The notes under the pieces: model-generated
What the model was told of the DNA's origin: nothing
The model's database searches: none
The model's input: only the letters and a program-made list of their open reading frames with translations
Shown here: in pieces, positions 2,682-51,078 of the stretch
Layout of the letters: the number at the start of each line of letters is the position of its first letter
Numbering within the stretch: the stretch's first letter is position 1
Source: a virus
Virus record (IMG/VR): IMGVR_UViG_3300049732_000296
Location: 1 to 53,002 of that record
Reading direction: 5' to 3' (one strand)
DNA: 53,002 nucleotides
Position numbers and translations under genes: made by a program

Positions 2682-2688
2682 ACCCCCC

Positions 2689-3655: not shown

Positions 3656-3657
3656 GC

Positions 3658-31349: not shown

Positions 31350-32777
31350 TCATCGCGCCGCTCCAACCGCCTCCGGGCGCTTCGCGCTCGGGGGCGTTCT
31401 TTTCTTCGCGTTCCCGCGCCAGCCATCGGCACGCTTCCCGGTGAAGTCCTGCCAGCGCTGGACAATGACGTCACAGTAGGCTGGGTCGAGCTCCATCAGG
31501 AACGCGCGGCGGTTCATGCGCTCGGCCGCGATCAGCGTCGATCCGCTCCCGCCGAACAGATCGAGCACGTTCTCGCCCTTGCGCGAGGAGTACTCCATCG
31601 CGAGCTCGGCGAGCCGGACCGGTTTCTCCGTGAGGTGCACCATCGACGCGGGGTTGACCTTCTTCACGTTCCACACGTCGGTGGCGTTGTGGAGGCCGGG
31701 CGCGAAGTAGTGCGCGGCGCCCGCGCGCCAGCCGTAGAAGCACCACTCGTGGTTGCCCATGAAGTCCTTGCGAGTGAGGACCGGGTGCTCCTTGACCCAG
31801 ATGATCGCCTGCGAGAAGTACAGCCCCGCGGCCTCCAGGGCCGCCGGGTAGTTCCGGATGTTCGAGTAGCCGCCCCAGATGTAGAACGCTCGTCCGGGAA
31901 GCAGAGCGCCGGCCAGGTATTGGAACCACGTCCCGAGCAGACGCGCGAATTCTTCGTCCGGCAGGAAGTCGTTCTCGAGCACGCGGTCGCGCGCGCGCAT
32001 CTTGCCGGTCGGCTTCGCCTTCTCCGGGTGTCGCGCAAGGTCGAGCTGCTGGTGGTGCGTCTTGGCGCGCTTTCGCTGCTGGGACGGGACGTTGCCCTTC
32101 GTGTTCTTGAGCCCACTCGCGATCGCGTTGTTCGACCGCGGTTCTACCCGGACGTTGTAGGGCGGATCGGTGTTTACCAGGTGGATCCGCGCGCCGTCCA
32201 AGAGCCTTGAGAGCGCCACCGGGTCCGCGCTGTCGCCGCACTTCAGGCGGTGGTTCCCGAGAACGATCAGGTCCCCGAGCTGCGTGTGGGGCTCATCGGG
32301 CGGCTCGGGGACCGCATCGGGGTCTGTGAGCCCGTCGCTGGCCATCTGAACCGACCGCAAGAACGCATCGACCTCGTCGGGCGTGAAGCCCGTCACCTCG
32401 AGGCCAATCCCGCCGCGCTCGAGCTCCGCGAGCAACGACGCTACTGCCGCGGTGTCGAACTCTCCGCCGATTCGATTGAGCGCGAGGTTGAGCTGCTTCT
32501 CCGCTGGCTCGTCCAGGTCGACGTAGACCACCGGCAAGCGCTCGATGCCCTCGGCTTGCGCCGCCTTGACCCGTTGGTGGCCACCAACGATGCGACCCGT
32601 GCGTCGGTTCACCACGACGGGGACCACGGTGCCGAACTGCCGGAGCGATCTGCGCAACGCCGCGAGATCGTGGTCCGAGATCAGGCGCGGGTTCCCCTGC
32701 CATCCCATAGTGGCGAGCTGGGCGGTAGGAAGGTCTACGAGCTCAATGCTCGCATGGGGGTTTGCGGACAACGGCAC
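31350..32777 (-). CDS. ParB-N domain fused to DNA methyltransferase
   Basis: A 475-residue protein starting at GTG 32777. Residues about 10-110 are a ParB-like domain with GGHQRVKAAQAEGIERLPVV. The rest is a beta-class DNA methyltransferase with catalytic NTDPPY (202-207) and SAM motif DLFGGSGST near residue 410, plus EWCFYGW. Such fusions are common orphan methyltransferases of phages that modify phage DNA against restriction. The target base is probably adenine or N4-cytosine in view of DPPY. No restriction partner is encoded nearby. A strong promoter and inverted repeat precede it. Confidence 0.9.
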   Translation of the reverse strand: MPLSANPHASIELVDLPTAQLATMGWQGNPRLISDHDLAALRRSLRQFGTVVPVVVNRRTGRIVGGHQRVKAAQAEGIERLPVVYVDLDEPAEKQLNLALNRIGGEFDTAAVASLLAELERGGIGLEVTGFTPDEVDAFLRSVQMASDGLTDPDAVPEPPDEPHTQLGDLIVLGNHRLKCGDSADPVALSRLLDGARIHLVNTDPPYNVRVEPRSNNAIASGLKNTKGNVPSQQRKRAKTHHQQLDLARHPEKAKPTGKMRARDRVLENDFLPDEEFARLLGTWFQYLAGALLPGRAFYIWGGYSNIRNYPAALEAAGLYFSQAIIWVKEHPVLTRKDFMGNHEWCFYGWRAGAAHYFAPGLHNATDVWNVKKVNPASMVHLTEKPVRLAELAMEYSSRKGENVLDLFGGSGSTLIAAERMNRRAFLMELDPAYCDVIVQRWQDFTGKRADGWRGNAKKRTPPSAKRPEAVGAAR

Positions 32778-32849: not shown

Positions 32850-33116
32850 TCACGAGGTCCCGCCGACCTTGAAGCAATCGAACCCGTGATTCAGCACCAG
32901 CAGACACCGCCACTGCCGTTCAGCCCCCTTCATCGCGTCCTTCCGCTGTTCGTCGGTCTCGTATTGGTGGCGCTCGAGGATCGCCGAACACGAGGCGCAT
33001 ACGGGTCTGGAGTCGCATGCCACATCGAGCGAAGGCCGGCCCGAACCTCGTAAGCGTGGCCATCTGTCCCTGGTCCCGAGGCGGCTGCAGATCGCGCAGC
33101 GGTCAGTCCTGGACAT
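32850..33116 (-). CDS. Small zinc-finger protein
   Basis: An 88-residue protein starting MSRTDRCAICSRLG. CAIC (7-10) and CASC (about 40-43) are likely zinc ligands; RWPRLRGSGRPSLDVACDSR lies between them. It resembles small phage zinc-binding proteins encoded near replication genes. It lies between the putative origin and the ParB-methyltransferase promoter. Function unknown. Confidence 0.6.
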   Translation of the reverse strand: MSRTDRCAICSRLGTRDRWPRLRGSGRPSLDVACDSRPVCASCSAILERHQYETDEQRKDAMKGAERQWRCLLVLNHGFDCFKVGGTS

Positions 33117-33152
33117 CGTGACCGCCTGGAACCCGACCGCCGGTCCGCACTA

Positions 33153-33299
33153 GACCTTTTGGACCTTTGAGACCTTTTCCTACTACTCTATATCTCATTC
33201 TCTTTCTTATATTTTCTATTCCTCTATTCACCTTACACGTAGCCGGAAAAGGTCTCTGAGGTCTCGAAGGTCTATCCTCTATGTAGACCTAATAGACCT
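33153..33299. repeat. Putative replication origin: GACCT iterons at exact 9-bp spacing around an AT-rich core
   Basis: GACCT occurs at 33153, 33162 and 33171. Its complement AGGTC occurs at 33250, 33259 and 33268, and GACCT again at 33286 and 33295. Spacing within each group is exactly 9 bp. The first two groups form a symmetrical pair with a 12-bp inverted repeat GAGACCTTTTCC/GGAAAAGGTCTC. Between them is a 60-base AT-rich segment (33181-33240), unusual in this GC-rich DNA. The last copy overlaps the stop codon of the DnaB-N/ATPase gene. Iterons plus an unwinding element beside replication genes indicate an origin; the binding protein is unknown. Confidence 0.7.
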
Positions 33300-35232
33300 A
33301 TTGGGGTGCTTCCAGCCTGTATGTTTTTCGTGGCGCCCCTCCTTCGGCGCGGATGATCCAGTCACCGACCGGGGTGTCGGAGTGCTTGCGCAGCACCGAC
33401 ATCGAGAACGCTGTCTGTCTCCCGCGCTCCGTCGTGGCCTTCAACTCGTACTGGAAGACGCCAATCTCCTCGGCGAGCGCGACGAGCTGCGCGGCCGTCA
33501 AGCTCTCGTCCGGATACTTCGTCGCCCAGGCCTCTACAAACGCGCGCAGGTCCTCGCCGTGGGGGTCGGCCTGGCGGGACCACTCCCTCTCGTTCGAGCG
33601 CCACTTGAGGAAGAGATTGGCGTTGAGGATTCCGCCGACGACCTGGGACCAGCGTTCGAATCCGCCCTTGAGTACGAGGTGACTCTTCCTGCCGTTGTCC
33701 CGCCAGCGGACCACCATCCCGATCAGCGAGCCGAGCACGTCGCGCCTGAGGGCTACGACGTGCGCCGGAAGGTCGGGGTGCTTGAAGTCCGCCCTGTCCT
33801 CCGGATGGTCGGTCTCCGGCTGCAGCTGGATCGGCACCGTGCGCTTCACGAGCTCGCCGGTGGCCCGCACGTTGTTCCCGCTGGCCACGATCGTCGTGTG
33901 GTTGGGCAGCTCGACGATCTTCGACTCGCCCAACGGGCGGCCGGAGTAGTAGCTCGAGGTGATCAGGGATGAGAGCGCCGCGGAGTCCAGGTACTCCCGA
34001 ACGTTGTCCAGGTGAACGACCGTGTCGCCACGGAGGAGTAGCGCCAGGATGCGCTTGTCGCGCTCCTCGTCGTTGCCCGTGAGTTGCATCGCCGGCGTCG
34101 GGCGGCCGAGTATGATCCCGCCGAGGACCTGTTCGGCCAGCTTGGTCTTCCCCGTGCGCTCGAGCGGGCTCAGGAGTAGGTGCATCGGCACGTTGCCGCC
34201 GAGCGCGGGGCGCAGGATCGGGCTCAGGAGGAGGCCGTAGAAGTTCTGCCTGGAGGCCTGATCCTTGAAGGGGAAGTCTTCGGTGAGCTGCTGCAGGACC
34301 TCATGCGCGCGTTCGTCGGTGATCGCTGGCAGGTCCTCGAGGCCCGGCGGCTCGTCGTAGTACACTCCGCCGCTGTTCCAGCCCCCACGGGCGAGCTCGA
34401 AGGACTCGAGGAAGCACGGATACGGGACCAGCAGGCGGAGGTTTCGCACCGTGGGATGGATGCCCGCGGCGTCGAGCAGGATCGACCCGTGGTCGCGGCT
34501 GCAGTTGACGTACACCTTGACCGGGTCGGGGTCGGTGCGCTTCTTCTGCCAGCGGACCAGGCGCACGTGTTGGTCGACCAGGACGCGCAGCCGGCTGTTG
34601 GTCAGCATGCGGAAGTGGCGATCGCCCTGAGGGCCGACGATCTCGCCGGCGATGTCGCCACGGCGATAAAGGACGCCAGGTGGTATGGCCCGCAGGACCT
34701 GGTCGGCGAACTCGTGCTGCCCGATCTCCAGGTAGTTGTTCGCGTCGTCCATATGCGCGCCCGGGGTGAGGACCTCTGGCAGCGCGCGGGAGCCGACGTC
34801 CTGCTGCATGAGAAGGCCGGCGTAGTACTCGACGTGCGAGCTTTTGTACGACCCGTCGAGCAGCTCGCCCAGGTACGCCGGACCTCCGACCATCAGCAGG
34901 CGATCGCCGAGGGCTCGCCGGACGGTTACGAGATCGATCGGCGCCCGGTCGGCATGGACCGACGCGATCGCCTCGTAGATCAGCTGGTGGCGGTGGCGGC
35001 GGAAGTGGGAGGAGACCAGACCGTCGGGGACGGGAGCGCCGAGCAGGATCGAGGCCAGGACCGCGCGTTCAGTGTTGTCGTCCGCTTTGGGGGTGTTGTC
35101 AGCTCTGGGCGTGTCGTCCGCGACGCAGACTGGCTCCTCGGTCCTGGCCGCCGGCGCCGCGGGCGTGGTAGCCGGCTCGGAGATCTCAGGCGGGGGGAGC
35201 TCGAGATCGTCTGGATCGAGGTCGTCGTGCAT
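33298..35232 (-). CDS. Replication protein: DnaB N-terminal-like domain fused to a phage-type ATPase
   Basis: A 644-residue protein starting at ATG 35232 (TGATG overlap). After an acidic Pro/Ala-rich start, residues about 55-110 match the DnaB N-terminal helical domain (ERAVLASILLGAPVPDGL, LIYEAIASVHADRAPIDL). The central and C-terminal part holds a P-loop-type ATPase with SPLERTGKTKLAEQVLGG and TVVHLDNVREYLDS, of the type found with D5/SF3-like helicases. It likely loads at or unwinds the adjacent iteron origin. The partnership of a DnaB-N domain with a non-DnaB motor is uncommon. Confidence 0.7.
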   Translation of the reverse strand: MHDDLDPDDLELPPPEISEPATTPAAPAARTEEPVCVADDTPRADNTPKADDNTERAVLASILLGAPVPDGLVSSHFRRHRHQLIYEAIASVHADRAPIDLVTVRRALGDRLLMVGGPAYLGELLDGSYKSSHVEYYAGLLMQQDVGSRALPEVLTPGAHMDDANNYLEIGQHEFADQVLRAIPPGVLYRRGDIAGEIVGPQGDRHFRMLTNSRLRVLVDQHVRLVRWQKKRTDPDPVKVYVNCSRDHGSILLDAAGIHPTVRNLRLLVPYPCFLESFELARGGWNSGGVYYDEPPGLEDLPAITDERAHEVLQQLTEDFPFKDQASRQNFYGLLLSPILRPALGGNVPMHLLLSPLERTGKTKLAEQVLGGIILGRPTPAMQLTGNDEERDKRILALLLRGDTVVHLDNVREYLDSAALSSLITSSYYSGRPLGESKIVELPNHTTIVASGNNVRATGELVKRTVPIQLQPETDHPEDRADFKHPDLPAHVVALRRDVLGSLIGMVVRWRDNGRKSHLVLKGGFERWSQVVGGILNANLFLKWRSNEREWSRQADPHGEDLRAFVEAWATKYPDESLTAAQLVALAEEIGVFQYELKATTERGRQTAFSMSVLRKHSDTPVGDWIIRAEGGAPRKTYRLEAPQ

Positions 35233-35555
35233 CACATGTACCCGCGGGCCCGTAGCTCGCACGCGACGTCGTCGACGGAGCGCGCCAGGATGTAGACCCC
35301 GTTGAAACGCTCGATCATCCGGGCGAACGCACCCTGCTGCCCAGTGGCCCGGCCGGTGGCGGACTTGACCTCGATCTCCAGCCGCTTGCCGTCCGGGAGG
35401 ATGCCCGTGAGGTCCGCGGACCCTGGTAGGCCGTAGCGGACCACCTGCGCGCCGTCGGGCGTGATAGCCACGCCGGTATTGTTCCTCCAGAGGCGCATGT
35501 CGCTCCGCGTGGCGAAGGCCTTGAGGATGGAGTTCTGGATCTGCTTCTCGGTCAC
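35232..35555 (-). CDS. VRR-NUC-type nuclease
   Basis: A 107-residue protein starting at GTG 35555. It shows the PD-(D/E)xK core: GLPGSADLTGILPDGKR, then EIEVKSATGRATGQQ, with D, E and K in the expected order. The family includes small phage Holliday-junction-type or structure-specific nucleases. It lies between the helicase and the replication ATPase, so a role in replication or recombination intermediates is likely. Confidence 0.88.
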   Translation of the reverse strand: MTEKQIQNSILKAFATRSDMRLWRNNTGVAITPDGAQVVRYGLPGSADLTGILPDGKRLEIEVKSATGRATGQQGAFARMIERFNGVYILARSVDDVACELRARGYM

Positions 35556-35728: not shown

Positions 35729-37269
35729 GCACTCCTCTCCCGCCGGGCGAACCGCGGCCACTGACCGAACATGGCCTTGAACTGGTAACCGGCCCAGCCT
35801 GGCTTGTAGCCCTTCGACTCAGCGACGAAGAGCAGCTGCTCGTAGGCGCGGCGCTTCTGGTCTGGCGTCGCCGTCGAGGCCTCGACGAGCTGGCTATCGA
35901 CCACCAGAGGCTTGAAGCCGAACATCGCGACGAACCTATGGAACGACCACCCCTCCCGGTAGCCGAAGCGCTTCCGACGCCACTCCAGGCTCTCCCACGC
36001 CGCGCGCTGCGCCTCAATCGACGGCCTCAGACGCGCGGCATCGGAGAACGCAACGAGCTCGCCCGGGCGTTCCTCCGGGAGCGATGGCTTGAATTGGTGG
36101 CCGCACTCCGGGCACTCCGGCGTGCCCGGGTCGACGAGCAGATAGCAGTCCGGGCACCGCCGCCCGGGCGAGGCCTCGGGGTCCTTGTCGCGCGCCTTGG
36201 GGTGGACGTCGTCCTCGAGGGAATAGTCCAGGCGCTGGATGACTGTTCCGTGCCGGAGGTGGTTCCCCGCGTGGTCGAGGACGATCGCTCCCAGCTTCTC
36301 GGGCGCAGAGCGCATGACGCGCCCGAGCATCTGCAGGTGGAGGCAGAGCGACGCCGTCGGCCGAGCGATGATCGCTACCTCGAGCGCCGGCAGGTCCCAC
36401 CCCTCGGTGAGGACCATGCACTGGCTGACGACGTGGGTGTATCCGATCTTCAGCCGGTGGAGGATCGCGTCGCGCATGGTCCTGCAAGTGCCGCCATCCA
36501 GGTGCTCTGCCCTGACGCCAGCCTCCTTGAAGGCCTCGACGATCTTGTTGGAGTGCGCGACGTTGACCGCGAAGCACACCGTCCTTTTGGCCGTGCCACC
36601 GGAGCAGCCGCGCTGAAACCAGGTCTTCACGATGTCCCCGGTGATCTTGGTCTTCGACATCGCGGCGAAGACGTCGCCCTCGCGGAACTCGCCGTGGACG
36701 ACCTTGACGCCGGAGAGGTCCGGGGTCGCCGGCGCGTACACGATCGGCTCGACGAGGGTCCCGTCCTGGCAGAGCTCGTCGGGGTAGCAAGCGACCACGA
36801 TCGATCCGAAGATGTCGCCGAGGCCCTTGCCGTCGAGCCGGAAGGGTGTCGCGGTCAGGCCCACCACGGGCCGGCCCTGGTAGTGATCGAGGACCTGGCG
36901 GTAGGTCGACGCACGCGCGTGGTGACACTCGTCCATCACCACCAGGTCGACGTCCGGAAGTGTGCGGCGCGCGAGCGTCTGGATCGATGCGACCTGCACA
37001 TGTGCCTTACGGTCGGCAGCCTGGCCCGCCATGATGATCCCGCACCGGAGGCCGTTGTCACGTAGAGAGCGCGCGGCCTGCTGGATCAACTCCCTGCGGT
37101 GCGCGAGCCACAGCGTGCGGAGCTGGAGCTCGCGCACCAGCGCGGCGGCTGTAACCGTTTTTCCGGCGCCGGTGGGCATCGTGAGGATCGGCCGCTCGTG
37201 GAGCTTGCCCGTGAGCTGCGCGATTGCCTCAGCCTGGTAGGGCCGCAGCGTCGGGAGAGCAGGTGTCAC
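35725..37269 (-). CDS. DEAD/DECH-box superfamily 2 helicase
   Basis: A 514-residue helicase starting at GTG 37269 (VTPALPTLRPYQAEA). Motif I is MPTGAGKT (31-38), motif II DECHH (113-117), motif III GLTATP (137-142) and motif VI-like QMLGRVMRS. The C-terminal part has a zinc ribbon CPDC ... CPECG and a charged domain. Phage SF2 helicases of this type act in replication, recombination or transcription. It is coupled to the ParB-like gene before it. Confidence 0.92.
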   Translation of the reverse strand: MTPALPTLRPYQAEAIAQLTGKLHERPILTMPTGAGKTVTAAALVRELQLRTLWLAHRRELIQQAARSLRDNGLRCGIIMAGQAADRKAHVQVASIQTLARRTLPDVDLVVMDECHHARASTYRQVLDHYQGRPVVGLTATPFRLDGKGLGDIFGSIVVACYPDELCQDGTLVEPIVYAPATPDLSGVKVVHGEFREGDVFAAMSKTKITGDIVKTWFQRGCSGGTAKRTVCFAVNVAHSNKIVEAFKEAGVRAEHLDGGTCRTMRDAILHRLKIGYTHVVSQCMVLTEGWDLPALEVAIIARPTASLCLHLQMLGRVMRSAPEKLGAIVLDHAGNHLRHGTVIQRLDYSLEDDVHPKARDKDPEASPGRRCPDCYLLVDPGTPECPECGHQFKPSLPEERPGELVAFSDAARLRPSIEAQRAAWESLEWRRKRFGYREGWSFHRFVAMFGFKPLVVDSQLVEASTATPDQKRRAYEQLLFVAESKGYKPGWAGYQFKAMFGQWPRFARRERSA

Positions 37270-38801
37270 TTGGATGCCTTGGCCTTCTTTCGCTTCCGGA
37301 CGTTCTTGGCCTTCTCCCCGGACCCCGAGTTCGGCGGGGAGGCTTTCGGGGCCTCGACGGGCGCGGCGGCGTTGAGGATCTTCTCGACGTCGACGTTGAA
37401 GGCCTTCGCCTGCTTCGGGAAGTGCTGATATGCGCCGTAGAACGTCGCGTCGCGGTGCAGGACCGCGAAGGCGAGGTGCCGGACCAGCTCCTCGGCCGTC
37501 GTGCCGCGCGGGAAGAGCTTCTTCATGGCGACCGAGTCGGTGCGATTCATCACCCCTTCGACGAGGGTCTTCTCGATCAGGCTGCCGGGCCCCACGGGAG
37601 CCTTGGCGACCGCTTCCGAGACGGCCTCGAGGATCGCCGGCCGCGCCTTGACCCAGCGTTTCCGCTCTACCTCCTCCTGCTCCCGTGCCGCCGCGCGCTT
37701 GGCCTCCTCCCGCTCCCAACGCTGCTGTTCGTTGCCGCCGCCGTTCTTGGCGCGCCTCGCCTTCTCCTTCTGCTCCTTGCCCCAGTGCGTGGTGCACTTC
37801 TCCTTCGCCACGCAGACCCTGAAGGCCTCGCCGCGCTCAGGGCCCACGACGACGACCCCGACGACCGAGTGATTGCAGGCCTTCGACCCGTGCTTACCGT
37901 CGGCGCGCTTCCACGACCGCGGCCCGTAGGTGTGTCCGTCGCGCGTTTCGGGCGCGATGTAGTGGTCGTGGGTGATGGGGACGATCTTCTCGGCCTTCTC
38001 GGTCGCGGCGCCGAGCGTGGCCACGGTCTCGGGGAACAGGACCGGGTCCGGCGCCTTCTCGAAGCGGACGTTCTTGTCGATCCAGGCCTGAAACTCCCGG
38101 ACGGTCACGGCCTTGACGGGCTCCTCGGGGCCGTCTTCGGCCTCGCCGTCGTTGTTCGGATTCCACAGCAGCTGCTCGGGCGAGAGCAGCGCGCCGATCT
38201 GCATCGCGCGCTCCTGGTCCTTCTTCGAGAGCCTGGCGAGTGGGATCGCGTGCCCGACGGCGATCGTGCCGTCCAGGAACAGCTTCCGCGCCGCCGGCGA
38301 CAGCCCGAGCAGCGCGACGCGGTCGTAGACGTACCGCGCGGGCCGGCCGATCCGCTCCCCGATGCGCTCCGCGGTGTAGCCGTGCTTCTTCGACATGAGC
38401 GCCCGGTAGCCCTCCGCCTCCTCGAGGGGGTGGACGTCGGCGCGCTGCAGGTTCTCGATGACCTGGACCTCGAGGACCTCGACGTCGCTCAGCTCGCGGA
38501 CGACGACGGGGATCTCCTCGAGGCCGGCGGCCTGGGCCGCGCGGAGGCGCCGCTGACCGCAGACGAGCTCGTAGGCTCCGTTCTGGGTGCCCACGCCTAC
38601 TGGGACAGGGCGCACCAGCACGGGCTGCAGGACGCCCTTCGTCCGTACCGACGCGGTCAGCTCCTCGAGGAGCTTCTCGTCGAGATGCTTCCTCGGGTTA
38701 GATTTCGAGATCGAGATGCGATGCAGCGGCAGCGCTGAAGGCGACCCGCCCTGAGAGACGGCGGGCGATGGGTCTGTCGTCGGGATCGAACTCCTCGTCA
38801 T
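37266..38801 (-). CDS. ParB/RepB-like DNA-binding protein
   Basis: A 511-residue protein. ATG 38801 has a good ribosome site (AAGGAGGAATTTCAGG). Residues about 25-120 are the ParB nuclease-fold domain with VCGQRRLRAAQAAGLEEIPV and ENLQRADVHPLEEAEG; KorB-like helices follow (AERIGERIGRPARYVYDRVA). The C-terminal half has a Cys-containing part and a long charged coil, ending KNVRKRKKAKASK. No ParA is present, so a role in replication, regulation or DNA protection is more likely than partition alone. The start overlaps the next gene by 104 bases. Confidence 0.85.
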   Translation of the reverse strand: MTRSSIPTTDPSPAVSQGGSPSALPLHRISISKSNPRKHLDEKLLEELTASVRTKGVLQPVLVRPVPVGVGTQNGAYELVCGQRRLRAAQAAGLEEIPVVVRELSDVEVLEVQVIENLQRADVHPLEEAEGYRALMSKKHGYTAERIGERIGRPARYVYDRVALLGLSPAARKLFLDGTIAVGHAIPLARLSKKDQERAMQIGALLSPEQLLWNPNNDGEAEDGPEEPVKAVTVREFQAWIDKNVRFEKAPDPVLFPETVATLGAATEKAEKIVPITHDHYIAPETRDGHTYGPRSWKRADGKHGSKACNHSVVGVVVVGPERGEAFRVCVAKEKCTTHWGKEQKEKARRAKNGGGNEQQRWEREEAKRAAAREQEEVERKRWVKARPAILEAVSEAVAKAPVGPGSLIEKTLVEGVMNRTDSVAMKKLFPRGTTAEELVRHLAFAVLHRDATFYGAYQHFPKQAKAFNVDVEKILNAAAPVEAPKASPPNSGSGEKAKNVRKRKKAKASK

Positions 38802-38946
38802 CCTGAAATTCCTCCTTCGCGCGACGGTAAAGGTCCTCGGCCGCCGTGGCGCATGAGCTGCAGAGCTCGGGCCCGACCCAGAAGCACGGGCCATCGGGCG
38901 TCGCGCAAGCCCGATCGTCCGTGCATCCGCAGCCGACGCAGGTCAT
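38698..38946 (-). CDS. Small cysteine-rich phage protein (CGCTD type)
   Basis: An 82-residue protein starting MTCVGCGCTDDRACATPDG, then CFWVGPELCSSC. This CxCGCTD...GC.WV....CS.C pattern is common in small phage proteins of replication regions. It probably binds zinc or iron. It ends within the coding start of the ParB-like gene (about 104-base overlap), which is long for this genome. ATG 38946 overlaps the J-domain protein stop. Confidence 0.8.
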   Translation of the reverse strand: MTCVGCGCTDDRACATPDGPCFWVGPELCSSCATAAEDLYRRAKEEFQDDEEFDPDDRPIARRLSGRVAFSAAAASHLDLEI

Positions 38947-39542: not shown

Positions 39543-41945
39543 CTATGCCACTACGCCCGCCTCGACGGAGACACGCCCGCCTTCGACGAGCAGCCTGACG
39601 TCGGCGGCCTCCTGGACTTCCTTCTGGTGCGACACGAACAGGACCTGCGCGAACCCTCCGAGCTCGCGCGCGCGCCGGAGCATGGAGACGTAGGCGCTCG
39701 CGTTGTCCGGATCGAGGGCTCCGGCCGTCTCGTCCCGCCACATCGTCCGGTAGCGGATGCCCGACTTGCGCGCGTTGAAGATCGCGATCGCCAGACCGAG
39801 GGCCTCGCCCACAATGACGCGCTCCCCTCCCGACAGCGCCTCGACCTGCCGCTCGGCGCCGCCGTCGTAGACGCGCACGTCGAAGGCTTCGGAGTACTCG
39901 CCCGGCGAGCTCTTCTTCTCCCGCAGGGTTTCGAACGTCAGGGAGAACCGCGGGCCGTAGCACGCGGCGAGCAGCTCGTTCGTGAGCCGCGCGACCTCCG
40001 GGCCCGCGGCGTCGATCTCGAGCGCCTGCACGCCGTCTCGGCCGAGAGCCGTGGCCAGGAGGTTCCAGTCCCCGAGCCCGGTCTCGTGGGCCTGGATCGC
40101 TCGCCTGTGGTCGGTGAGAGCGTTCTCCTTCTCGCGCAGCGCTGTGATGCGCGTCAGGACCTCGGTGGCGGATCGGTCGGCGGTGCGGAGGGTCGCCTCC
40201 GCGGTCTCGCGCGTCGTCCTCGCCTTGGTGACGCGAGTCTCCGCGATGGAGACGTCCTCGATATCGGCCCGGGCCTTCAGCAGCTCGGCCTGGGCCTCGG
40301 TGTGCCGGTGTGCCGCGACCTCGCGGGCGACCCGCGCGCTGCTGATCTGCTCGTCGACGTCGAGCATCTCGCCGGCGAGATGCTCGGAGATCTGGGCACG
40401 GGCGTGCTCGGCTGCCTGGCGCTCGTTCGCGATCGTGGAACGGTCGTGATCGAGGTCCTGCTGGAGCCTGGCCTCCTCGCCGGCGAGCGCGGCGAGTTGC
40501 TCGCGGGCCTGGCTCGCGGCGCGAGCGTTGGCGACGGTCTCGCGGAGGGCGGGGAGCCGGAGCCTCCCGGCCTCGATCTCTTTCCGCCTCGCCAGGGGTC
40601 CGGCATCGGGCATGTCGAGGACGAGGACCCCGAGAGTCCCGAGCGTATCCAGTTGCGCGGCCGCGGCGTTGGCGTCGGCGAGCAAGGGGCACTTCGCCGC
40701 GAGATGTCTCACCGCCAACGGAGCGGGCGGCATGCAGGGAGGATCGTCCGGGTTGTCTCCGGGATCGAGAGGCGACCATTCCTGGGCTTCGGTGCACGGC
40801 ACCTTCCCGCGCAGCTCCGCGGCGCGGCGCAGCCGGTTCTCCTCTTGGCGCCGCTGTTCGATTGCGAGCGCCATGGCCTCCGCTTCCCGCTCTGCGGCTC
40901 TCAGGGCTTCGAGCTCGGCCTCGATCGCGTCGATCTCCTCCTGGGCGGCGTCGGCGTCGCCGGCCTTCGCGATCGCGGCCTCAAGGTTCCGCCGGCGGGT
41001 AGCGAGCCCATCGCGCGCCATGGAGTGTCGGCTCGTGAGGTCCCGGAGTCGCCGATCCAGGGCCCCGAGGTCGTACGCCTTCAGCTGATCGTCCGCGGCA
41101 CGCCTCAGCTTCCCTGGCCTGGCCTCCGTGTCGGCGACGTGAGCGCTGGCCTGGGTCAACGAGAGTCGAGCCGCCTGCTCGGCCTGGACGAGCGCGGCGA
41201 TCCGCTCCTCCGCGCCTCTGGCGCGCGCGAGGGCCTCGGTTGCCGCCGTCTCCTCCATGCGGGCCTTGTCGAGGGCGCCCGCGGCCGTGTCGAGCGCCAT
41301 CTGGGCGTCTCGTAGACGAGCCTCCAGCCCGGGGAGCGCCTGCAGCTCGTTCTCGACCGCCGCGGCGAGAGCCCGCTCCCGGTCGAGGCCCCTCTCTTCC
41401 ATGCCAGCCTGTTGCTTCGCGCTCTCGTGTAGGACCTGCAGCCGCGAGAGCCCGAGCAGCTCCACGAAGAGCGCCTTGCGCTCTGTGGCCTTCATCTGGA
41501 GGAACGATCCGCGCTTGCTCTGGCAGGCGAAGACACTCGACAGGAACAGTTCGAGCGAGCCGAAGCGCTTCGAGATCTCGGCGTCGAACTCGGCCGCCCG
41601 GCCGCTTGTGACCGCGTGCATCTCTCCGGGGACGCCGACGAAAACGTACGACTCCAGGGTTCTCTTCTCGGCGTCAATCTGCAGGCGGACCGTGACTTGC
41701 TGGCCCTGGTCGTCCCATGTGGTCTCGACGTAGGAGCCTCGGCCGGTGCAGTGTTCGTACAAGCTCCCGGGCCTGGTGGGGAGCGTCTTGTAGAGGCTCG
41801 CCGGCGCGGACTCGAAAAGAGTCGTCTTGCCCGCGCCGTTGGGACCCACGACGGCGATGAGGCCATCGCCGAGGCCCTCGAAGTCGACCTCGACGGGGTC
41901 GGTGAAGCGGGTCAGGCCGCGGAAGCGGAGGGAGGTCAGTTGCAC
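39543..41945 (-). CDS. sbcC: SbcC/Rad50-like ATPase
   Basis: An 800-residue SMC-like ATPase starting at GTG 41945. Walker A is VVGPNGAGKTT (32-42), followed by a long coiled coil. The ABC signature is ALSGGERV (near 704) and the Walker B region WRDETAGALD. At the coil apex C384, C404 and C419 are present, but the usual CxxC zinc hook is not obvious. Together with the SbcD-like protein at 42441-43622 it should form a nuclease complex processing DNA ends in phage recombination or replication. Confidence 0.92.
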   Translation of the reverse strand: MQLTSLRFRGLTRFTDPVEVDFEGLGDGLIAVVGPNGAGKTTLFESAPASLYKTLPTRPGSLYEHCTGRGSYVETTWDDQGQQVTVRLQIDAEKRTLESYVFVGVPGEMHAVTSGRAAEFDAEISKRFGSLELFLSSVFACQSKRGSFLQMKATERKALFVELLGLSRLQVLHESAKQQAGMEERGLDRERALAAAVENELQALPGLEARLRDAQMALDTAAGALDKARMEETAATEALARARGAEERIAALVQAEQAARLSLTQASAHVADTEARPGKLRRAADDQLKAYDLGALDRRLRDLTSRHSMARDGLATRRRNLEAAIAKAGDADAAQEEIDAIEAELEALRAAEREAEAMALAIEQRRQEENRLRRAAELRGKVPCTEAQEWSPLDPGDNPDDPPCMPPAPLAVRHLAAKCPLLADANAAAAQLDTLGTLGVLVLDMPDAGPLARRKEIEAGRLRLPALRETVANARAASQAREQLAALAGEEARLQQDLDHDRSTIANERQAAEHARAQISEHLAGEMLDVDEQISSARVAREVAAHRHTEAQAELLKARADIEDVSIAETRVTKARTTRETAEATLRTADRSATEVLTRITALREKENALTDHRRAIQAHETGLGDWNLLATALGRDGVQALEIDAAGPEVARLTNELLAACYGPRFSLTFETLREKKSSPGEYSEAFDVRVYDGGAERQVEALSGGERVIVGEALGLAIAIFNARKSGIRYRTMWRDETAGALDPDNASAYVSMLRRARELGGFAQVLFVSHQKEVQEAADVRLLVEGGRVSVEAGVVA

Positions 41946-42217
41946 AGCTCGCTCCCCCGCCCGACTCTCGTAGCGCACGCGCGGCATTCCGGGTGCCCCT
42001 GCTTGGTGCGGTCGTCCTCGGACACCGGGAGGCCGCAGCTCGTGGAGGCGAAGAACACCGGGCGGCCGGCGAAGGTGCTGCCTTGCGAGACTCCCTGTGA
42101 GCCCCCGGTCGCCAGGGCGTGCCACACGCCGTGGTGGCGGACGATCCGGACGGGCCGCGACTCGGCGGCGTCCATGCGTTCGCGGAGACGGAAGGCTCCG
42201 CCGCGGTTGCCGGTCAT
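41936..42217 (-). CDS. Small zinc-binding protein between sbcC and sbcD
   Basis: A 93-residue protein starting MTGNRGGAFRLRERMDAAES and ending with CRACATRVGRGSELCN. The cysteine pattern C...HPECRAC suggests zinc binding. It overlaps the sbcC start by 10 bases and is coupled to 42214. No family is recognised. Confidence 0.6.
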   Translation of the reverse strand: MTGNRGGAFRLRERMDAAESRPVRIVRHHGVWHALATGGSQGVSQGSTFAGRPVFFASTSCGLPVSEDDRTKQGHPECRACATRVGRGSELCN

Positions 42218-42441
42218 CTCCGCCTCGTCTTGGTCTTCGGCGTCCCAACGTCCTGAACAGTGAAGGTTCTCGGATGGAAGTCGGAGTCGTTCCAGATCGC
42301 CTCCATCAGGGCGCAGCGAACGGCGTTGGAGTCGAGAGCGTCGACGAGAGCGCGATCGAACCTCTTGCCCCCAGCCTCCGTCTCGATGCCGTGGGGGCCG
42401 AAGTCGAACAGGTACATCACGGCCACGGCTCGCTTACCCAT
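42214..42441 (-). CDS. Small protein of unknown function
   Basis: A 75-residue protein starting at ATG 42441 (TAATG overlap with sbcD). It contains MYLFDFGPHGIETEAGGKR and ALVDALDSNAVRCALMEAI, and ends in a basic tail TPKTKTRRR. No family is recognised. Location between the two nuclease-complex genes suggests an accessory role. Confidence 0.6.
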   Translation of the reverse strand: MGKRAVAVMYLFDFGPHGIETEAGGKRFDRALVDALDSNAVRCALMEAIWNDSDFHPRTFTVQDVGTPKTKTRRR

Positions 42442-43622
42442 TACGCCCCTACCTCCACGCCTTCCGGCTGTTCGATTCGCGCGAGCTTGTCCCGCACGCG
42501 GTCTTTCTCGGCGTCGGAGAGCGAGATGCCCTTCGCGGTCCAGTAGGCCTGGACCTTCTCCCACGTCGCTTGCGCGCTCACGATCTCCGTGGACCGGACG
42601 CGCGCCTCGTGGACGAGCACGGCTTCGAGCTTGACCTCATGGGCGCCGTTCTCGACAAATATGAACCTGTGGTAGTCCTCGTCCACCAGGTGGAGGTCCC
42701 CGGGACGAATGCGGTAGCGGAACCGTACAAGGGCGCCGGCGACGTCCTCGCTCTTGAGGGAGTCCGCGGACGTGACGGAGATGGACCAGTCCCGCTCCAG
42801 TAGCACGATCCTCCTCGCCGGCAACTCCACGAACTCGACGGAGGCGAGCTTCCCATCCTGGAGAGTGACGAGGTTCCACCCCTTGGCCTCGGGCTCACCG
42901 AAGTTGTTCCGCTGCGTGCTCCCCGAGTACGCGACCCTCCCCCCGAGCCACGACTGCGGCTTGTGGATGTGCCCGAGCGCGACGTATTCGCACCCGACGT
43001 CCGCGAGATCCGAAGGCGACAGCTCCACGGTCGTCCCGATCAGCGTCTGCCCGGTCGAGACCTCCGAGCCCGCCACGAGGACATGGGCCGCCAGGAGCGG
43101 TATGCCGCCCTCGGCACGCACGCGGTGCGCCTCCGCGCGTAGCGCCGTCAGCATGGTCCTGGCGGCCTGGATGGTGAGCTCCGTGGTCTGTGTGGTCGGT
43201 GTGGAAGCATCGAGGGAGGCGCAGAGGTGGGCTTTGGTGAACCAGGGGAGGGCGAGGACCGCGATGGGCGCGGGCCCGATCAGGACGGCGCCCTGTGGCT
43301 CCACCGTCGGTCGATCGAGAATCGTGACCGGGTGCGCCGTGTCGAGCATCGAGAAAACTTCGAGGTCCCCCGGTGCGTCGTGGTTGCCGCGCACGCCGAA
43401 CACCGGCGCGATCTCCGAGGCCGCGAGCAGGAAGTCCGCGAGCACGTTGCGCTCCGCGGGCGTCGAGCGCCGCTCGAAGAAATCGCCGGCATGGATGATG
43501 AGATCTGCCCCGCGCTCGCGAGCGCCAGCGAGGAACGCATTCAGGCATCCGACGTTGTCCGCGAGGCGGTTGCGCTCGTCGAGATGTGAGTCCGCCAGGT
43601 GGGCGATCCGTATGGTGGTCAT
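42441..43622 (-). CDS. sbcD: SbcD/Mre11-like nuclease
   Basis: A 393-residue metallophosphoesterase starting at ATG 43622. Motifs: HLADSHLDE (D11, H13), IIHAGDFFER, VFGVRGNHDAPG, LLAAHVLVAG and VALGHIHKPQ, a complete Mre11-type metal site. The C-terminal part (RFIFVENGAHEVKLEAVL) would bind the SbcC coil. It is the nuclease partner of the protein at 39543-41945. Confidence 0.93.
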   Translation of the reverse strand: MTTIRIAHLADSHLDERNRLADNVGCLNAFLAGARERGADLIIHAGDFFERRSTPAERNVLADFLLAASEIAPVFGVRGNHDAPGDLEVFSMLDTAHPVTILDRPTVEPQGAVLIGPAPIAVLALPWFTKAHLCASLDASTPTTQTTELTIQAARTMLTALRAEAHRVRAEGGIPLLAAHVLVAGSEVSTGQTLIGTTVELSPSDLADVGCEYVALGHIHKPQSWLGGRVAYSGSTQRNNFGEPEAKGWNLVTLQDGKLASVEFVELPARRIVLLERDWSISVTSADSLKSEDVAGALVRFRYRIRPGDLHLVDEDYHRFIFVENGAHEVKLEAVLVHEARVRSTEIVSAQATWEKVQAYWTAKGISLSDAEKDRVRDKLARIEQPEGVEVGA

Positions 43623-44122
43623 GTGATCGCCGGTACGCCGCGGGGCGCGCGCTTCACGGGCGCGGGAGCCTCGCGTTCGACGAGCGACCACTCGTTGTCG
43701 TTCTGCTCGATGATCTTCTTGATCTTCAGTGCGTAGAGCGCGTTCGCCACGTCTTTTCGCCCGGCGTCGATGCCTTCGGTCCGGAGGTGGGCTCTGATGT
43801 CCTTCGTCGTCAGGGAGACTTCCTCCTTGATGATCCTGACGATGGCGGACCGCAGACCGGTAGCGTCGGTCGACTTCCCGGGGCCCGCTGTCTCGGCCTT
43901 GGGCGGTAGGCTTGCCGTCGGGACCGGGGCCTCTCTCTCGGGCTTCCGAGGGGCCTTCGGAGTCTCCGGCAACGGCGGCATCGAAGCCCACATCTTGGTC
44001 GCTTCCGGAGACAGCCCTTCGAGGACCACCGCAAGCGCCTCGATCTTTCCGTCGAGCCGCGCGCGCTCGATCTTGAGCGCGTAGATGGTCTCCCGGAGCT
44101 GCTCTCTCTGGTCGGTGGTCAT
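43619..44122 (-). CDS. Coiled coil plus winged-helix-like protein
   Basis: A 167-residue protein. An N-terminal coil (REQLRETIYALKIERARLDG) leads to a Pro/Lys-rich linker and then a C-terminal helical domain (SLTTKDIRAHLRTEGIDAGR, then DVANALYALKIKKIIEQND). The last resembles a winged-helix DNA-binding module. It is coupled to SbcD by an ATGA overlap. It may be a DNA-binding cofactor of recombination. Confidence 0.65.
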   Translation of the reverse strand: MTTDQREQLRETIYALKIERARLDGKIEALAVVLEGLSPEATKMWASMPPLPETPKAPRKPEREAPVPTASLPPKAETAGPGKSTDATGLRSAIVRIIKEEVSLTTKDIRAHLRTEGIDAGRKDVANALYALKIKKIIEQNDNEWSLVEREAPAPVKRAPRGVPAIT

Positions 44123-47124: not shown

Positions 47125-47508
47125 ATGGCGCGCGAGGACCGAATCTCGTTCGAGGTCACTCGCGATCTCCGTAAGTGGCTCGAAGATGCCGCGGCCGTTC
47201 TACCAGAGCAACCCGGGAAGCCTGGTCGGAAGGGGAAGCTCTCCGAGTACCTCCGGATCGTGCTGGAGGCCCACAAGGCTGGCGCGAAGCCGGTGATTCC
47301 GCAGCCGGACCCGGATGTCAGGGAAGCTGGGGACTGGTTCGTCGGTCTCCCGGTCCCGGCTCAGCGCGCCCTTCTGAGCGCGGCGCTCGCCTGGGAGCGC
47401 CCCGAGTGGGTCGAGGCGCTACGGAAGCGGCTTCTCTCCGGTCGATCGCGTCGAACAGCGAGGCGTACAGGGCGAGGCGGTCGTTCTCCCTCGAAGGGAA
47501 GCGGATGA
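47125..47508 (+). CDS. Putative lysogeny regulator, ribbon-helix-helix-like
   Basis: A 127-residue protein starting MAREDRISFEVTRDLRKWLE; helix KLSEYLRIVLEAHK follows. A strand RISFEV and two helices suggest a ribbon-helix-helix DNA-binding domain. The C-terminal tail is basic (GRSRRTARRTGRGGRSPSKG). It is divergent from the XRE gene across the operators and in the lysogenic direction with the cassette and integrase, so it may act as repressor or co-repressor. Confidence 0.65.
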   Translation: MAREDRISFEVTRDLRKWLEDAAAVLPEQPGKPGRKGKLSEYLRIVLEAHKAGAKPVIPQPDPDVREAGDWFVGLPVPAQRALLSAALAWERPEWVEALRKRLLSGRSRRTARRTGRGGRSPSKGSG

Positions 47509-47635
47509 TGTCCCCCATCTACAATCCTGACGGGATCGGCTCGTGGCGTTGCCGCGGTCCGCACCGGCCCGAATCGATGCGATGTAGCCTGTCTCGACGT
47601 TGGGCTCCTTATACCCCGGCGGAGCTGAGAATGCA
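47509..47635 (+). promoter_or_regulatory. Conserved intergenic block upstream of the second cassette
   Basis: This matches 247-375. It contains AGCCTGTCTCGACGTTGGGC (47586-47605), TATACC (47610-47615) and GGAG before the ATG at 47636. A 49-residue frame (47507-47656) is open here but is not conserved in unit A because of an indel. It likely carries the cassette promoter or a regulator site. Confidence 0.5.
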
Positions 47636-48049
47636 ATGCCCAACAGAGAGCTGACAATCCCGCCCTCTGGGGCCCGTCCGATCTTCTGGTGGCTCTTGGT
47701 TCTGTTGCCCGCCTCGCTCGTCGCCTTGGCGATGTGTGCCGGGGGCAACGATGAATCGACGCAACGTCCCGAAGGCCCAACCGCCGAACAGATCGCGCTT
47801 TACGACTCGGTCGTCAAGGAGTTCCAGGCCTCTGGGCTCGTCAGGAAGCTCCAGCCCAATCTGAACACCGCCCACGTCGACCCTGTTATCTGGGCCGCTC
47901 TCAACGTAGACCAGAAGGAAAAGCTGGCCTTCGCGCTCGCTCAATACTGTGGGATCAAGAAGCACGGTCCGCCGTGGGTCGACATCTACAGCTATCAAAG
48001 CGGGAAAAAGCTCGCCGGGTATGGCCCCATGGGGCTCAAGGTCGAATGA
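47636..48049 (+). CDS. Cassette gene 1 (intact): membrane-anchored small protein
   Basis: A 137-residue protein starting MPNRELTIPPSGARP, then a membrane segment (WWLLVLLPASLVALAMCAGG). An exported C-terminal domain carries LNTAHVDPVIWAALNVDQKE and VDIYSYQSGKKLAGYG, ending GLKVE. C34 could be lipidated (LAMC), although the lipobox is imperfect. It is the intact homologue of the broken gene at 376-790. Role unknown; by location it could act at the envelope in lysogens. Confidence 0.8.
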   Translation: MPNRELTIPPSGARPIFWWLLVLLPASLVALAMCAGGNDESTQRPEGPTAEQIALYDSVVKEFQASGLVRKLQPNLNTAHVDPVIWAALNVDQKEKLAFALAQYCGIKKHGPPWVDIYSYQSGKKLAGYGPMGLKVE

Positions 48050-48222
48050 CAGACATCACCTCCTGCCCCCATTGTTCGGCATCGATGCGCGCGAGCTCGA
48101 GCGTCTGTCCGAGGTGCCACCTCCCGCGGAGGATCACCGCGAGCATCGACTTCGGATTGCGCCGAGCGTCAGCCGCGGAGGATGACGCCATGCCCAGCAC
48201 GACCCGTCCCGAGAGCGAATGA
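48046..48222 (+). CDS. Cassette gene 2: zinc-ribbon protein
   Basis: A 58-residue protein with CPHC and CPRC and the conserved SIDFGLRR. The start overlaps the preceding stop (ATGA). It is homologous to 787-981, with a different short acidic tail. Confidence 0.8.
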   Translation: MTDITSCPHCSASMRASSSVCPRCHLPRRITASIDFGLRRASAAEDDAMPSTTRPESE

Positions 48223-48578
48223 TGGAGCTTCGGGCGTTCATCTCCGAGGTCCTGCGGGCTGTCGTCGACGGCGTTGCCGACGCGCAGCAGGCAACGGACC
48301 CATCGAAGGCCTTGATCAGCCCGGAGCGGGCACGGGAGTTCAGCGTCCCCCGAGAGTTCGCAGGCGTGGGCGGCGACGTCCAGGCGATCGAGCTCGATCT
48401 CGCCATCACCGCGACGAAGCCTGGAGGTGGGAAAGGCACGGCCCACCCGATAGTCTGGGCAGCGACATCGGCGGAGATCGGCAGGGCCGCGAGCTCGGGT
48501 GCACTCTCCAGGCTCCGGTTCAGAGTCCCGGTTGCGCTCCCCGTGCAGCGGACACCGCGTCAGGGAGCGAGATCATGA
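48219..48578 (+). CDS. Cassette gene 3: trypco2-like protein
   Basis: A 119-residue protein starting MMELRAFISEVLRAVVDGVA, closest in length and sequence to 978-1325: AIELDLAITATKPGGGKGTA, VWAATSAEIG and LSRLRFRVPVALPVQR. It overlaps both neighbours by ATGA. The central strand and final RxRFxVPVxLP strand are as in the other family members here. Function unknown; see the finding on the cassette. Confidence 0.8.
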   Translation: MMELRAFISEVLRAVVDGVADAQQATDPSKALISPERAREFSVPREFAGVGGDVQAIELDLAITATKPGGGKGTAHPIVWAATSAEIGRAASSGALSRLRFRVPVALPVQRTPRQGARS

Positions 48579-48895
48579 ACGTACGTGAGTTCGTCAGCCA
48601 GGTCCTGCAGGACATCGTTCGCGGCCTGATGGATGCCCAGGAGCGGACGAACGACACGCGGGCCTTCATCGTCCCATCCGGTCACGGCTCCGACTTCACA
48701 ACCAGATCCGTGGAGTTCGACATTGCTCTTACCACAACCGAATCGAAGGGCTCAGAGGCCGAGGCCAAGGTGGCCGTGTGGTCGATCGGCGCGGGTGCCG
48801 GCGGTCGTTCGGAGAGTAGCGATACGAGCGTGAGCCGGGTGAAGTTCGTTGTCCCCGTCTCGCTGCCCTGGCACCAGAAGCCGAAGAAGGAATGA
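48575..48895 (+). CDS. Cassette gene 4: second, diverged trypco2-like protein
   Basis: A 106-residue protein starting MNVREFVSQVLQDIVRGLMD, with SVEFDIALTTTESKGSEAEA, VAVWSIGAGAGG and SRVKFVVPVSLPWHQ. It shares the family layout but is diverged from its neighbour and absent from unit A, so either a tandem duplication here or a loss there occurred. It is coupled to int by ATGA. Confidence 0.8.
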   Translation: MNVREFVSQVLQDIVRGLMDAQERTNDTRAFIVPSGHGSDFTTRSVEFDIALTTTESKGSEAEAKVAVWSIGAGAGGRSESSDTSVSRVKFVVPVSLPWHQKPKKE

Positions 48896-50034
48896 AGCGC
48901 CACACCTCCGCCGTCAATGGAGTGTTCTCCTACCTCGTGAAGCGCAAGGGCTGGACGAAGCACCGCCGATACTGGGGCGTTCAGTACCGTGACCCGGTCA
49001 CCTGGAAGATGCGCATCCGGCGCGGGTTCAAGCTCCAGGCCGAGGCCCTCGACTTCCGAACCTCCACCGACCGCCAGCACGCCGGTCTCGATGAGGCGAC
49101 GTCGGACGGGTTGACCTTCGCCGACGCCCTGGACCGCTACCGGAAGCACTGGAAGGCCCTCGGACGCCGCGACAGCTCGTACGAGTACCTAGACCGCGTG
49201 TGGCTCCCGGCGTTCGGGAAGCGGCCGATTGCCGAGATCCGGAGCGAAGACGTCGAGGAGCTGCTCGAGGCGTGGCACACGGAGAAGGGCTGGTCGCCCC
49301 AGACCAGGAACACGGTCCTGAACCAACTCTCGGGCCTACTCTCGCACGCCTACGGCCGGCGCTGGATCCACCACCACCCGATCGAGCGCGGGCGCGTCCA
49401 CAAGGTCCCGGTGCACAACGCGCGACAGCGCTGGCTCCGGCCCGACGAGATCTCGAGCATCCGCGCTGGGGCTCCGCCCTGGCTCCAGGACATCATCACC
49501 TTGGCCGCGGCGACGGGGCTACGGCTCGAGGTCGTGTGCGCCGCGAAGAAGGCGGACCTCCAGGAAGACGCCGCGGGGAACCTCTACCTGTTCGTCCAGC
49601 GCGACAAGAACGGACAGCCGCTGTACAAGATGCTCGAGGGCCCGATCGCCGCCCTGGCGAGACGGCACTCCGAGGCGGCCCAGTTCCCTGGGAGCTCCCT
49701 GTTCCCGGGCCCGGGCGGAGGGAACGCGCGGACCTCGATCCGACGGTTCCTGCCGGTCGCCGTGCGGGCGGCCGGCCTCCGGTGGGGCCGGAAGCACGCG
49801 GACGGCGTGACGTTCCACACCCTACGTCACTCGATGGCCTCGATCGCGCTGAACGTCGCCAAGGTCCCCGAGCACATGGTGCGCCGCATGGGGGCCTGGC
49901 AGGACGCCCGCATGGTCGGGCGGTACGGGCACCTGGCGGACGAGGAGCTGCGCAAGGCCGAGCTCGCCGTGGCCAGGATCGTGGCCGGCCCGCCCGCAAA
50001 GGCCGCCAAGCGGCGCCCCCGCGCTCGCGCCTGA
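48892..50034 (+). CDS. int: Tyrosine-recombinase phage integrase (second type, tRNA-Ala site)
   Basis: A 380-residue recombinase. The N-terminal arm-type domain (YWGVQYRDPVTWKMRIRRG) is followed by a core-binding domain and the catalytic domain: R211 in ATGLRLEV, H309 and R312/H313 in FHTLRHS, W336 in GAWQDAR and Y345 in VGRYGHL. The first box reads GLRLEV instead of the common GLRRGE. The start overlaps the preceding stop. It is a different subfamily from the integrase at 1322-2383 and is next to a tRNA-Ala core. Confidence 0.95.
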   Translation: MKRHTSAVNGVFSYLVKRKGWTKHRRYWGVQYRDPVTWKMRIRRGFKLQAEALDFRTSTDRQHAGLDEATSDGLTFADALDRYRKHWKALGRRDSSYEYLDRVWLPAFGKRPIAEIRSEDVEELLEAWHTEKGWSPQTRNTVLNQLSGLLSHAYGRRWIHHHPIERGRVHKVPVHNARQRWLRPDEISSIRAGAPPWLQDIITLAAATGLRLEVVCAAKKADLQEDAAGNLYLFVQRDKNGQPLYKMLEGPIAALARRHSEAAQFPGSSLFPGPGGGNARTSIRRFLPVAVRAAGLRWGRKHADGVTFHTLRHSMASIALNVAKVPEHMVRRMGAWQDARMVGRYGHLADEELRKAELAVARIVAGPPAKAAKRRPRARA

Positions 50035-50113
50035 GGACGTCCAATCCCTCTGCCCGCCCCGAGATCGTCGATCCTGGGCCAACGTCGCGAGCTGGCGCCG
50101 CTTTCCGGCGGCA

Positions 50114-50135
50114 TGGAACTCTTGTGGAACACTTA
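50114..50135. repeat. Two tandem 11-bp arm-type sites, TGGAACWCTTR
   Basis: TGGAACTCTTG (50114-50124) and TGGAACACTTA (50125-50135) lie between int and the tRNA-Ala core, in the same arrangement as the unrelated repeats at 2381-2402. A degenerate copy, TGGAACCGATG, is at 50339-50349 on the other side (8 of 11 match). They are probable arm sites of this integrase. Confidence 0.5.
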
Positions 50136-50199
50136 TCCGTTTGGCTTCCTCGGGCCGATTTGGGCCGAGAGCCAAGCCTAGCGCTATCACCAAGTTACG

Positions 50200-50244
50200 T
50201 GGTGGAGCTGAGGGGGATCGAACCCCTGACCTCGTGACTGCCAG
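50200..50244 (-). tRNA. 3' fragment of tRNA-Ala(GGC), probable attachment core
   Basis: On the minus strand the segment ends ..CAGCTCCACCA, with T-arm AGGGGTTCGATCCCCCT and anticodon-loop CTGGCAG (GGC). Further 5' (50245 on) the anticodon stem fails to pair and no D-arm is found. Hence it is only the 3' half of a tRNA-Ala gene carried by the phage as its attachment core, beside the second integrase. Confidence 0.72.
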
Positions 50245-50367
50245 GCAGAGAAGAAGGGGCGGCGTGGCGACCGAAAGCGGCGGGGCGTGGCTTTTTGCTG
50301 TCCTCGGAGTCCACGGAGGGTGCCCCGTCCTGGCCGCGTGGAACCGATGTTGGAGCGGTTGGGGGAG

Positions 50368-51078
50368 CTACCGCCGCCCGATCGTGAGTGCCGGGCCGCC
50401 CGCGACCGCCCACGGATCCCCGTCGTCGAGCCGATAGTCCACGTCCGCCCACCAGCCGAGCCGCCGCCGGCCGTACCAGGACGCTCCGGCCACGAGCCCC
50501 GGCGCGCTCGACAGGCCCAGCCGCAACTCCGCGCGCCACCGGGCGGTCTGCTCCTCGACCGTCCCGGCCGGGCGGCTCGATTCGGCCGTGGACTCCGTGA
50601 GGTCCAGCGGCCCGTCGTACAGCCGGACCCATGGGGCCTCGGGGCCCAGGCGGACGTCGCAGAAGATCCTGCCACGCCATCCCGCCCGGACCTTCCCGCC
50701 CTCGAGCCCCTCGACCTTCACCGCGTCCGTCCCGCCACGGGCCTCCAGCTTGGCGAGCGTCGGGTCGATGAACACGTACTCCTTGATCGCCTCGCGGGCC
50801 TCCGGGGGCACCGGACGAACCTCCCCCCGGAGCCGGGCGATCTCGACCACCCGGGCGGCGAGCTCGCCCTCCAGACGCTCGGCGCGCCCGGCCTCGACCT
50901 CCAGCTCTCGCGCCAGGGCGTCCACCGCCTCCTGGTCGACGACCTTGACCGTCACGACGTCGGGTGGCAGGGGCGGGAGCGGGGGCGGTGGGTCCGGCCC
51001 GGTGCACCGGCCGAGACCGAAGGCCGCGGGGATCGCGACGAGCGCCAGGGCGACGGCGATCAGCCGGAGGCGGGTCAT
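50368..51078 (-). CDS. Membrane-anchored coiled-coil lysis protein (homologue of 2939-3655)
   Basis: A 236-residue protein starting MTRLRLIAVALALVAIP, with the same layout: anchor, proline run, coiled coil (VDQEAVDALARELEVEAGRA), and aromatic beta-rich end (WYGRRRLGWWADVDY). Very similar to the unit-B protein along its length, so the lysis modules diverged recently relative to the endolysins. Confidence 0.7.
   Translation of the reverse strand: MTRLRLIAVALALVAIPAAFGLGRCTGPDPPPPLPPLPPDVVTVKVVDQEAVDALARELEVEAGRAERLEGELAARVVEIARLRGEVRPVPPEAREAIKEYVFIDPTLAKLEARGGTDAVKVEGLEGGKVRAGWRGRIFCDVRLGPEAPWVRLYDGPLDLTESTAESSRPAGTVEEQTARWRAELRLGLSSAPGLVAGASWYGRRRLGWWADVDYRLDDGDPWAVAGGPALTIGRR

Follow-up and report, generated by a model that had tools for sequence, protein, structure and literature searches.

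A partly symmetrical 9-bp GACCT iteron array beside a D5-like helicase gene as the probable replication origin of an unstudied phage

Eight copies of the pentamer GACCT are clustered at positions 33153-33299 of a viral DNA, next to a gene for a replication ATPase. Their regular layout raises the question of what this array does and which protein recognizes it. The window analysed here is the whole stretch of 53,002 nucleotides of IMG/VR record IMGVR_UViG_3300049732_000296, a single viral contig carrying terminase-, portal- and tail-like genes, most of them on the minus strand. The two ends of the record, 229-5275 and 47492-53002, match collinearly with 73-83% DNA identity, and their integrases are 24% identical. 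On sequence comparison, one phage and the beginning of a second, related one seem to lie one after the other on the contig, as in tandem prophages, with an apparent exchange of the integrase between conserved neighbour genes.

The array is made of three groups. GACCT starts on the plus strand at 33153, 33162 and 33171, its inverted form AGGTC at 33250, 33259 and 33268, and GACCT on the plus strand again at 33286 and 33295. Steps inside each group are 9 bp without exception, and all coordinates agree with the eight copies (3 direct, 3 inverted, 2 direct) described in the earlier note. The first two groups belong to two arms, at 33151-33180 (plus strand) and 33245-33274 (minus strand), which form an imperfect inverted repeat of 30 bp with 25/30 matches, centred at 33212.5. 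All five mismatches between the arms are located in spacers and none in pentamers. The third group (33286-33299, plus strand) has no mirror image, so the symmetry first described holds for the two 3-copy arms and not for the array as a whole. A detector of inverted arms sharing one period (periods 7-22, at least 5 copies) returned this array as its single match in the 53,002-bp record, and in 30 dinucleotide shuffles of the full record a single place showed 6 or more copies by chance, with all periods from 6 to 24 allowed. GACCT itself is abundant far beyond the array, with 210 occurrences in the whole record versus 123 expected from dinucleotide shuffles (sd 12); this excess probably reflects codon use.

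The pentamers of the two arms enclose a core of 74 bp (33176-33249), and not 60 bp as previously estimated, which we propose as the melting site. With 66% AT against a record mean of 33%, it is the most AT-rich stretch of the 53-kb record; elsewhere, the highest AT fraction of a 74-mer stays below 0.58. Over 62 bp (33176-33237), 81% of the plus-strand bases are pyrimidines, a content equalled in the record only near 4344, whereas the cores of the other origins that we examined are AT-rich without this pyrimidine bias. GC skew had been put forward as a check for replication initiation at this locus, and it gave a divided answer. The detrended cumulative skew reaches its minimum at 33,745, about 0.5 kb from the array, and permutation tests of the skew range gave p values of 0.017 for the phage body taken as 4.2-47 kb and 0.036 for a second choice of its limits, but 0.26 for the whole record. 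Because the whole-record test fails, GC skew alone is weak evidence: its minimum agrees with an origin near the array, and no more.

The gene adjoining the array (33298-35262, minus strand) encodes a D5-like ATPase of 654 residues, the putative initiator helicase, which matches PHROG families 10537, 19930 and 29234. As the earlier note had it, the array lies beside this gene: it abuts the stop codon at 33298 and, since its last iteron overlaps this codon, it sits at the 3' end of the gene. Pfam identifies a DnaB N-terminal domain (PF00772, 6.9e-15) at residues 61-151 (34810-35082, minus strand). The ATPase core lies at about residues 311-525 (33688-34332, minus strand), and a predicted C-terminal winged helix, the proposed reader of the iterons, occupies residues 567-654 (33301-33564, minus strand). 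The AlphaFold model was built with 38 relatives and is good only in parts (mean pLDDT 59); a single-sequence model (pLDDT 35) was of no use. With relatives, confidence is high in parts of the ATPase and in the last 90 residues (pLDDT about 79-94), whose succession helix-helix-helix-strand-strand is that of a predicted winged helix. When the model was compared with the PDB using Foldseek, SaPI5 PriRep1 with dsDNA came first (E 5.5e-7), followed by other D5-like primase-helicases; these matches are evidence of the fold class only, because their TM-scores are low (0.2-0.4). Fold search and model thus describe a D5/SaPI-Rep-like helicase with a predicted C-terminal DNA-binding domain. No close relatives of this ATPase were present in the collections searched; among more distant relatives, the array does occur.

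Around this gene, the next one downstream (32850-33116, minus strand) encodes a cysteine-rich protein of 88 residues, without family match in Pfam or PHROG. A ParB N-terminal domain fused to a DNA methyltransferase is encoded at 31350-32777, and a second ParB-like protein, with an HTH_ParB domain, at 37266-38894. The replication cluster contains a pair of SbcC-like and SbcD-like genes at 39543-43991. No ParA/ParM family member was found in the ORFs scanned, and no primase family in the replication-cluster ORFs scanned with Pfam and PHROGs, the small ORFs having been scanned in part.

We compared this locus with known origins of similar layout. RepA of plasmid pWTY27 is homologous to the window ATPase (28.7% identity, E 1e-23 by tblastn), and PHROG families 10537, 19930 and 29234 are common to both. 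It binds in vitro just 3' of its own gene, with DNaseI footprints at 405-447 and 462-509 (PMC3583192). We found that the footprinted sequence (IR2) contains inverted arms at 486-502 and 405-420, each holding GTGGGAA twice at a 9-bp distance. Like the window, pWTY27 has a homologous ATPase gene with iterons just 3' of it and inverted 9-bp pairs around a core, and the footprints lie over the pWTY27 arms. The two loci differ in the iteron, GTGGGAA instead of GACCT, and in copy number, 2+2 instead of 3+3+2. Moreover, pWTY27 encodes a separate prim-pol, RepB, and its RepA is without a DnaB-N domain, whereas the scanned ORFs of the window's replication cluster contain no such partner primase/polymerase and the DnaB-N domain is present instead. 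In pMNOD06, GGGGGG pairs 9 bp apart surround an AT core directly after the homologous gene.

Origins of PICIs are located immediately 3' of rep, where two iteron sets flank an AT-rich region (PMC6092414), and the SaPI and Cch2 helicases use their C-terminal domain to bind iterons that lie downstream of the helicase gene (PMC7581432). The window resembles them in layout: the array is immediately 3' of a gene for a D5-like helicase with a predicted C-terminal DNA-binding domain, and its 3+3 inverted copies surround the AT-richest 74 bp of the record. The functional origin of EcCICFT073 has TCTACC pairs 9 bp apart ahead of its AT core, and 9 bp is the commonest same-strand spacing in 12 dereplicated relatives (22 cases, followed by 11 bp with 17, 8 bp with 9 and 12 bp with 3). 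The SaPI/PICI origins are unlike the window in their GGTAGA iterons, in their more numerous and less regular groups, and in belonging to satellite islands rather than to a full phage. In P4 crr, the annotated type I repeats at 4314, 4323, 4366, 4384 and 4398 are 9 and 18 bp apart. This region also lies immediately 3' of a primase-helicase gene, that of alpha, with its repeats in the same order, direct, inverted, direct; it is distinguished by a duplicated 120-bp unit, the repeat TGTTCAC and a second site (ori) elsewhere in P4. Since the 9-bp pitch is found in P4 crr, EcCICFT073, pWTY27 and pMNOD06, it is the norm for this class of origins, and the view that such a phase is unusual for iterons does not hold. 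A classical iteron plasmid origin (RepE/Rep_3, iterons of about 17-22 bp) does not fit the 9-bp steps, and a Pfam scan gave no Rep_3 match near the array.

Viral contigs were also scanned with the array pattern alone. The pattern of three GACCT plus AGGTC mostly retrieved collagen-like Gly-Pro coding repeats, which have a 9-bp period as well; after exclusion of GGACCT codons, 14 loci were left, while about one chance match was expected (reckoned by hand). Arrays were found at the 3' end of genes for VapE-like (L021), D5_N/DUF5906 (L052, L123) and phrog_10537 (L027) helicases. The last of these matches phrog_10537 at 2e-96 and belongs to the same ATPase family as that of the window. Loci L112, L124, L125, L127, L129 and L131 resemble matches due to coding sequence or chance. 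Clear 3+3 inverted 9-bp GACCT arrays occur near terminase genes in L083 (4821-4911) and L104 (12691-12794), with no helicase gene identified beside the array in the DNA examined. Searches started from the pWTY27 RepA and pMNOD06 proteins yielded no relative among viruses or genomes.

We collected 146 relatives of the L027 ATPase, which were dereplicated to 78 loci. An inverted array of at least 5 copies is present near the ATPase stop in 59 of them; in the other 19 the detector found none, the array being diverged, truncated or elsewhere. Among the periods tested, from 6 to 24, period 9 was found in 59/59 arrays and period 12 in 2. No period-9 array was seen in 680 control windows of the same loci or in 1,560 shuffles. 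The core measures 56-75 bp in 58 of the 59 loci. The letters of the iterons vary widely among these relatives (GGGGACCT, GGGAACCT, TGTGAACCT, TGTGAGCCT, CGTGAACGT and others), in contrast to pitch, orientation and position, which are conserved. Several large phages (L133, L135, L141 and L142) encode a homologous ATPase and have no array 3' of the gene. In an alphaproteobacterial clade (L146-L225), the ATPase gene contains the complete origin within its 3' coding end, and the tail of the protein therefore changes with the iterons. A coding origin, i.e. a step of three codons, was rejected as the general cause of the 9-bp period: the arrays of the window, P4, PICIs and pWTY27 are non-coding, and periods of 6, 12, 15 and 18 hardly occur.

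Were the ATPase the reader of the iterons, their letters would be expected to follow its DNA-binding domain. Covariation was measured in the alphaproteobacterial relatives, which are 25-30% identical to the window ATPase and have the array inside the 3' coding end. With overall similarity removed, iteron similarity follows ATPase identity at residues 460-521 (partial rho 0.44-0.52); the relation is absent or negative for the first 440 aligned residues and about 0 for the downstream flank. For iteron base 3 (G or T), the full 0.99 bits of information are present at residue 515 and likewise at residue 518 (0.90 and 0.93 after subtraction of the permutation mean); among residues before 440, the highest value is 0.20 bits (0.155 adjusted). 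In 59/59 relatives with an array, iteron base 3 is correctly predicted from wing residue 518. When the iteron state was followed along an ATPase-core tree, at least 11 changes fell on well-supported branches; in 11/11 independent pairs, the wing residue switched together with the iteron (p 0.001). Within G-type iterons, HKTT goes with GACC in 8/8 cases and HKA or HQA with AAC in 18/18. Near-identical sisters (L215/L255, L175/L177, L152/L154) differ chiefly in the wing segment and the iteron. The wing of the window ATPase (RKT) could be taken for an HKT-GACC match, which we do not rely on, the alignment being ambiguous there.

The covariation signal is highest at the wing, lower between wing and array, and disappears on the far side of the array. 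Linked exchange adds to it, because only a few hundred bp separate the wing from the array; a cassette in which the two stay paired is, however, what a reading protein and its target would require. The earlier note had found the protein that reads the array not obvious. The comparison of relatives, in which the iteron letters track only the winged helix of the ATPase, largely answers this point: it indicates that the neighbouring ATPase, rather than the ParB-like or small zinc proteins, reads the iterons through its C-terminal winged helix.

Could the array instead be recognized as a structure, the two arms forming a hairpin or cruciform with a 30-bp stem and a loop of about 70 nt, in which the 9-bp repeats would be secondary? 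In pRN1, a 100-bp stem-loop located 3' of the primase-helicase gene is needed (PMC4234260); at high temperature it has a 21-nt stem and a 58-nt loop. The window shares with it the inverted arms around an unpaired interior (about 58 nt in pRN1) and the position 3' of such a gene; the pRN1 element is described as a hairpin, and 9-bp iterons are not reported for it. A stem-loop was also proposed for RepA by the pWTY27 authors (PMC3583192). As single-stranded DNA the window arms fold well (-21.0 kcal/mol, z -7.7), and in the 37 relatives with a 3+3 layout 84% of the spacer bases agree with their mirror partner, versus 67% between non-mirrored copies, showing that dyad symmetry is kept beyond the iterons. 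However, a hairpin alone needs no direct 9-bp repetition within its arms, which is yet kept in 59/78 relatives. In addition, the restriction of the arm mismatches to spacers, the extra iteron pair that would be left unpaired and the covariation of iteron base identity with the wing residue all speak against it, and we consider this reading unlikely; hairpin formation may still contribute to the origin.

Two further functions appear very improbable. A partition (centromere-like) site for one of the two ParB-like proteins would be in keeping with the proximity of their genes and with some plasmid centromeres, which consist of short direct repeats around a core; yet in unrelated elements the array is found together with a D5-like ATPase, and its letters vary with the wing of this ATPase. 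ParB sites are usually separate palindromes, and one of the ParB proteins here is a fusion with a methyltransferase. Equally improbable is an operator that controls transcription of the downstream genes. The array does lie within a 181-bp intergenic gap upstream of the 88-residue gene, but no sigma-70-like promoter or terminator was detected in 33050-33400, in relatives the array occupies the coding end of the ATPase gene or has other downstream surroundings, and an AT-rich core between opposed arms fits a melting site. Autoregulation in addition to an origin function is possible.

We thus consider it very likely that the array is a phage replication origin of the SaPI/P4-crr/pWTY27 type. The adjacent helicase would bind it through its wing, load on the opposed arms and melt the core. 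The suggestion of an iteron-type origin next to the ATPase is upheld by the match to known systems, the adjacent helicase and the relatives, with weak support from the skew. The array, its core, the gene order, the prediction of a winged helix, the conservation of the 9-bp pitch in relatives and the covariation of wing and iterons are all read from sequence, and from them we infer how replication might start. The initiator helicase, of D5/SaPI-Rep type and encoded immediately upstream of the array, would bind the GACCT iterons in this phage through its C-terminal winged helix. The 9-bp copies and the opposed arms would seat two oppositely facing helicase assemblies, one on each side of the core, in a double-hexamer loading. 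ATP hydrolysis would then open the AT-rich core, and the two helicases would begin bidirectional replication. In DnaB, the N-terminal domain contacts primase. The scanned ORFs of the replication cluster yielded no primase, so that host primase may be recruited by the DnaB-like N-terminal domain; this last point is a guess.

This type of origin is already known from satellite phages and plasmids, and the unstudied phage is a new case of it. The covariation of wing and iterons appears to be new in the open-access literature searched, a scope that makes the missing earlier description weak evidence of novelty. Members of phrog_10537, a widespread phage family annotated as unknown, gain a likely function, since the comparisons point to origin-binding initiator helicase as their probable role. 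Prophage origins can be looked for by screening the 3' ends of D5-like ATPase genes for inverted 9-bp arrays. With at least 11 independent switches and near-identical sisters, the covariation amounts to a natural domain-swap experiment, which makes the specificity of this class of initiators directly testable. If the proposed recognition is true, origins and their specificity would be predictable, and swappable, across many phages and plasmids.
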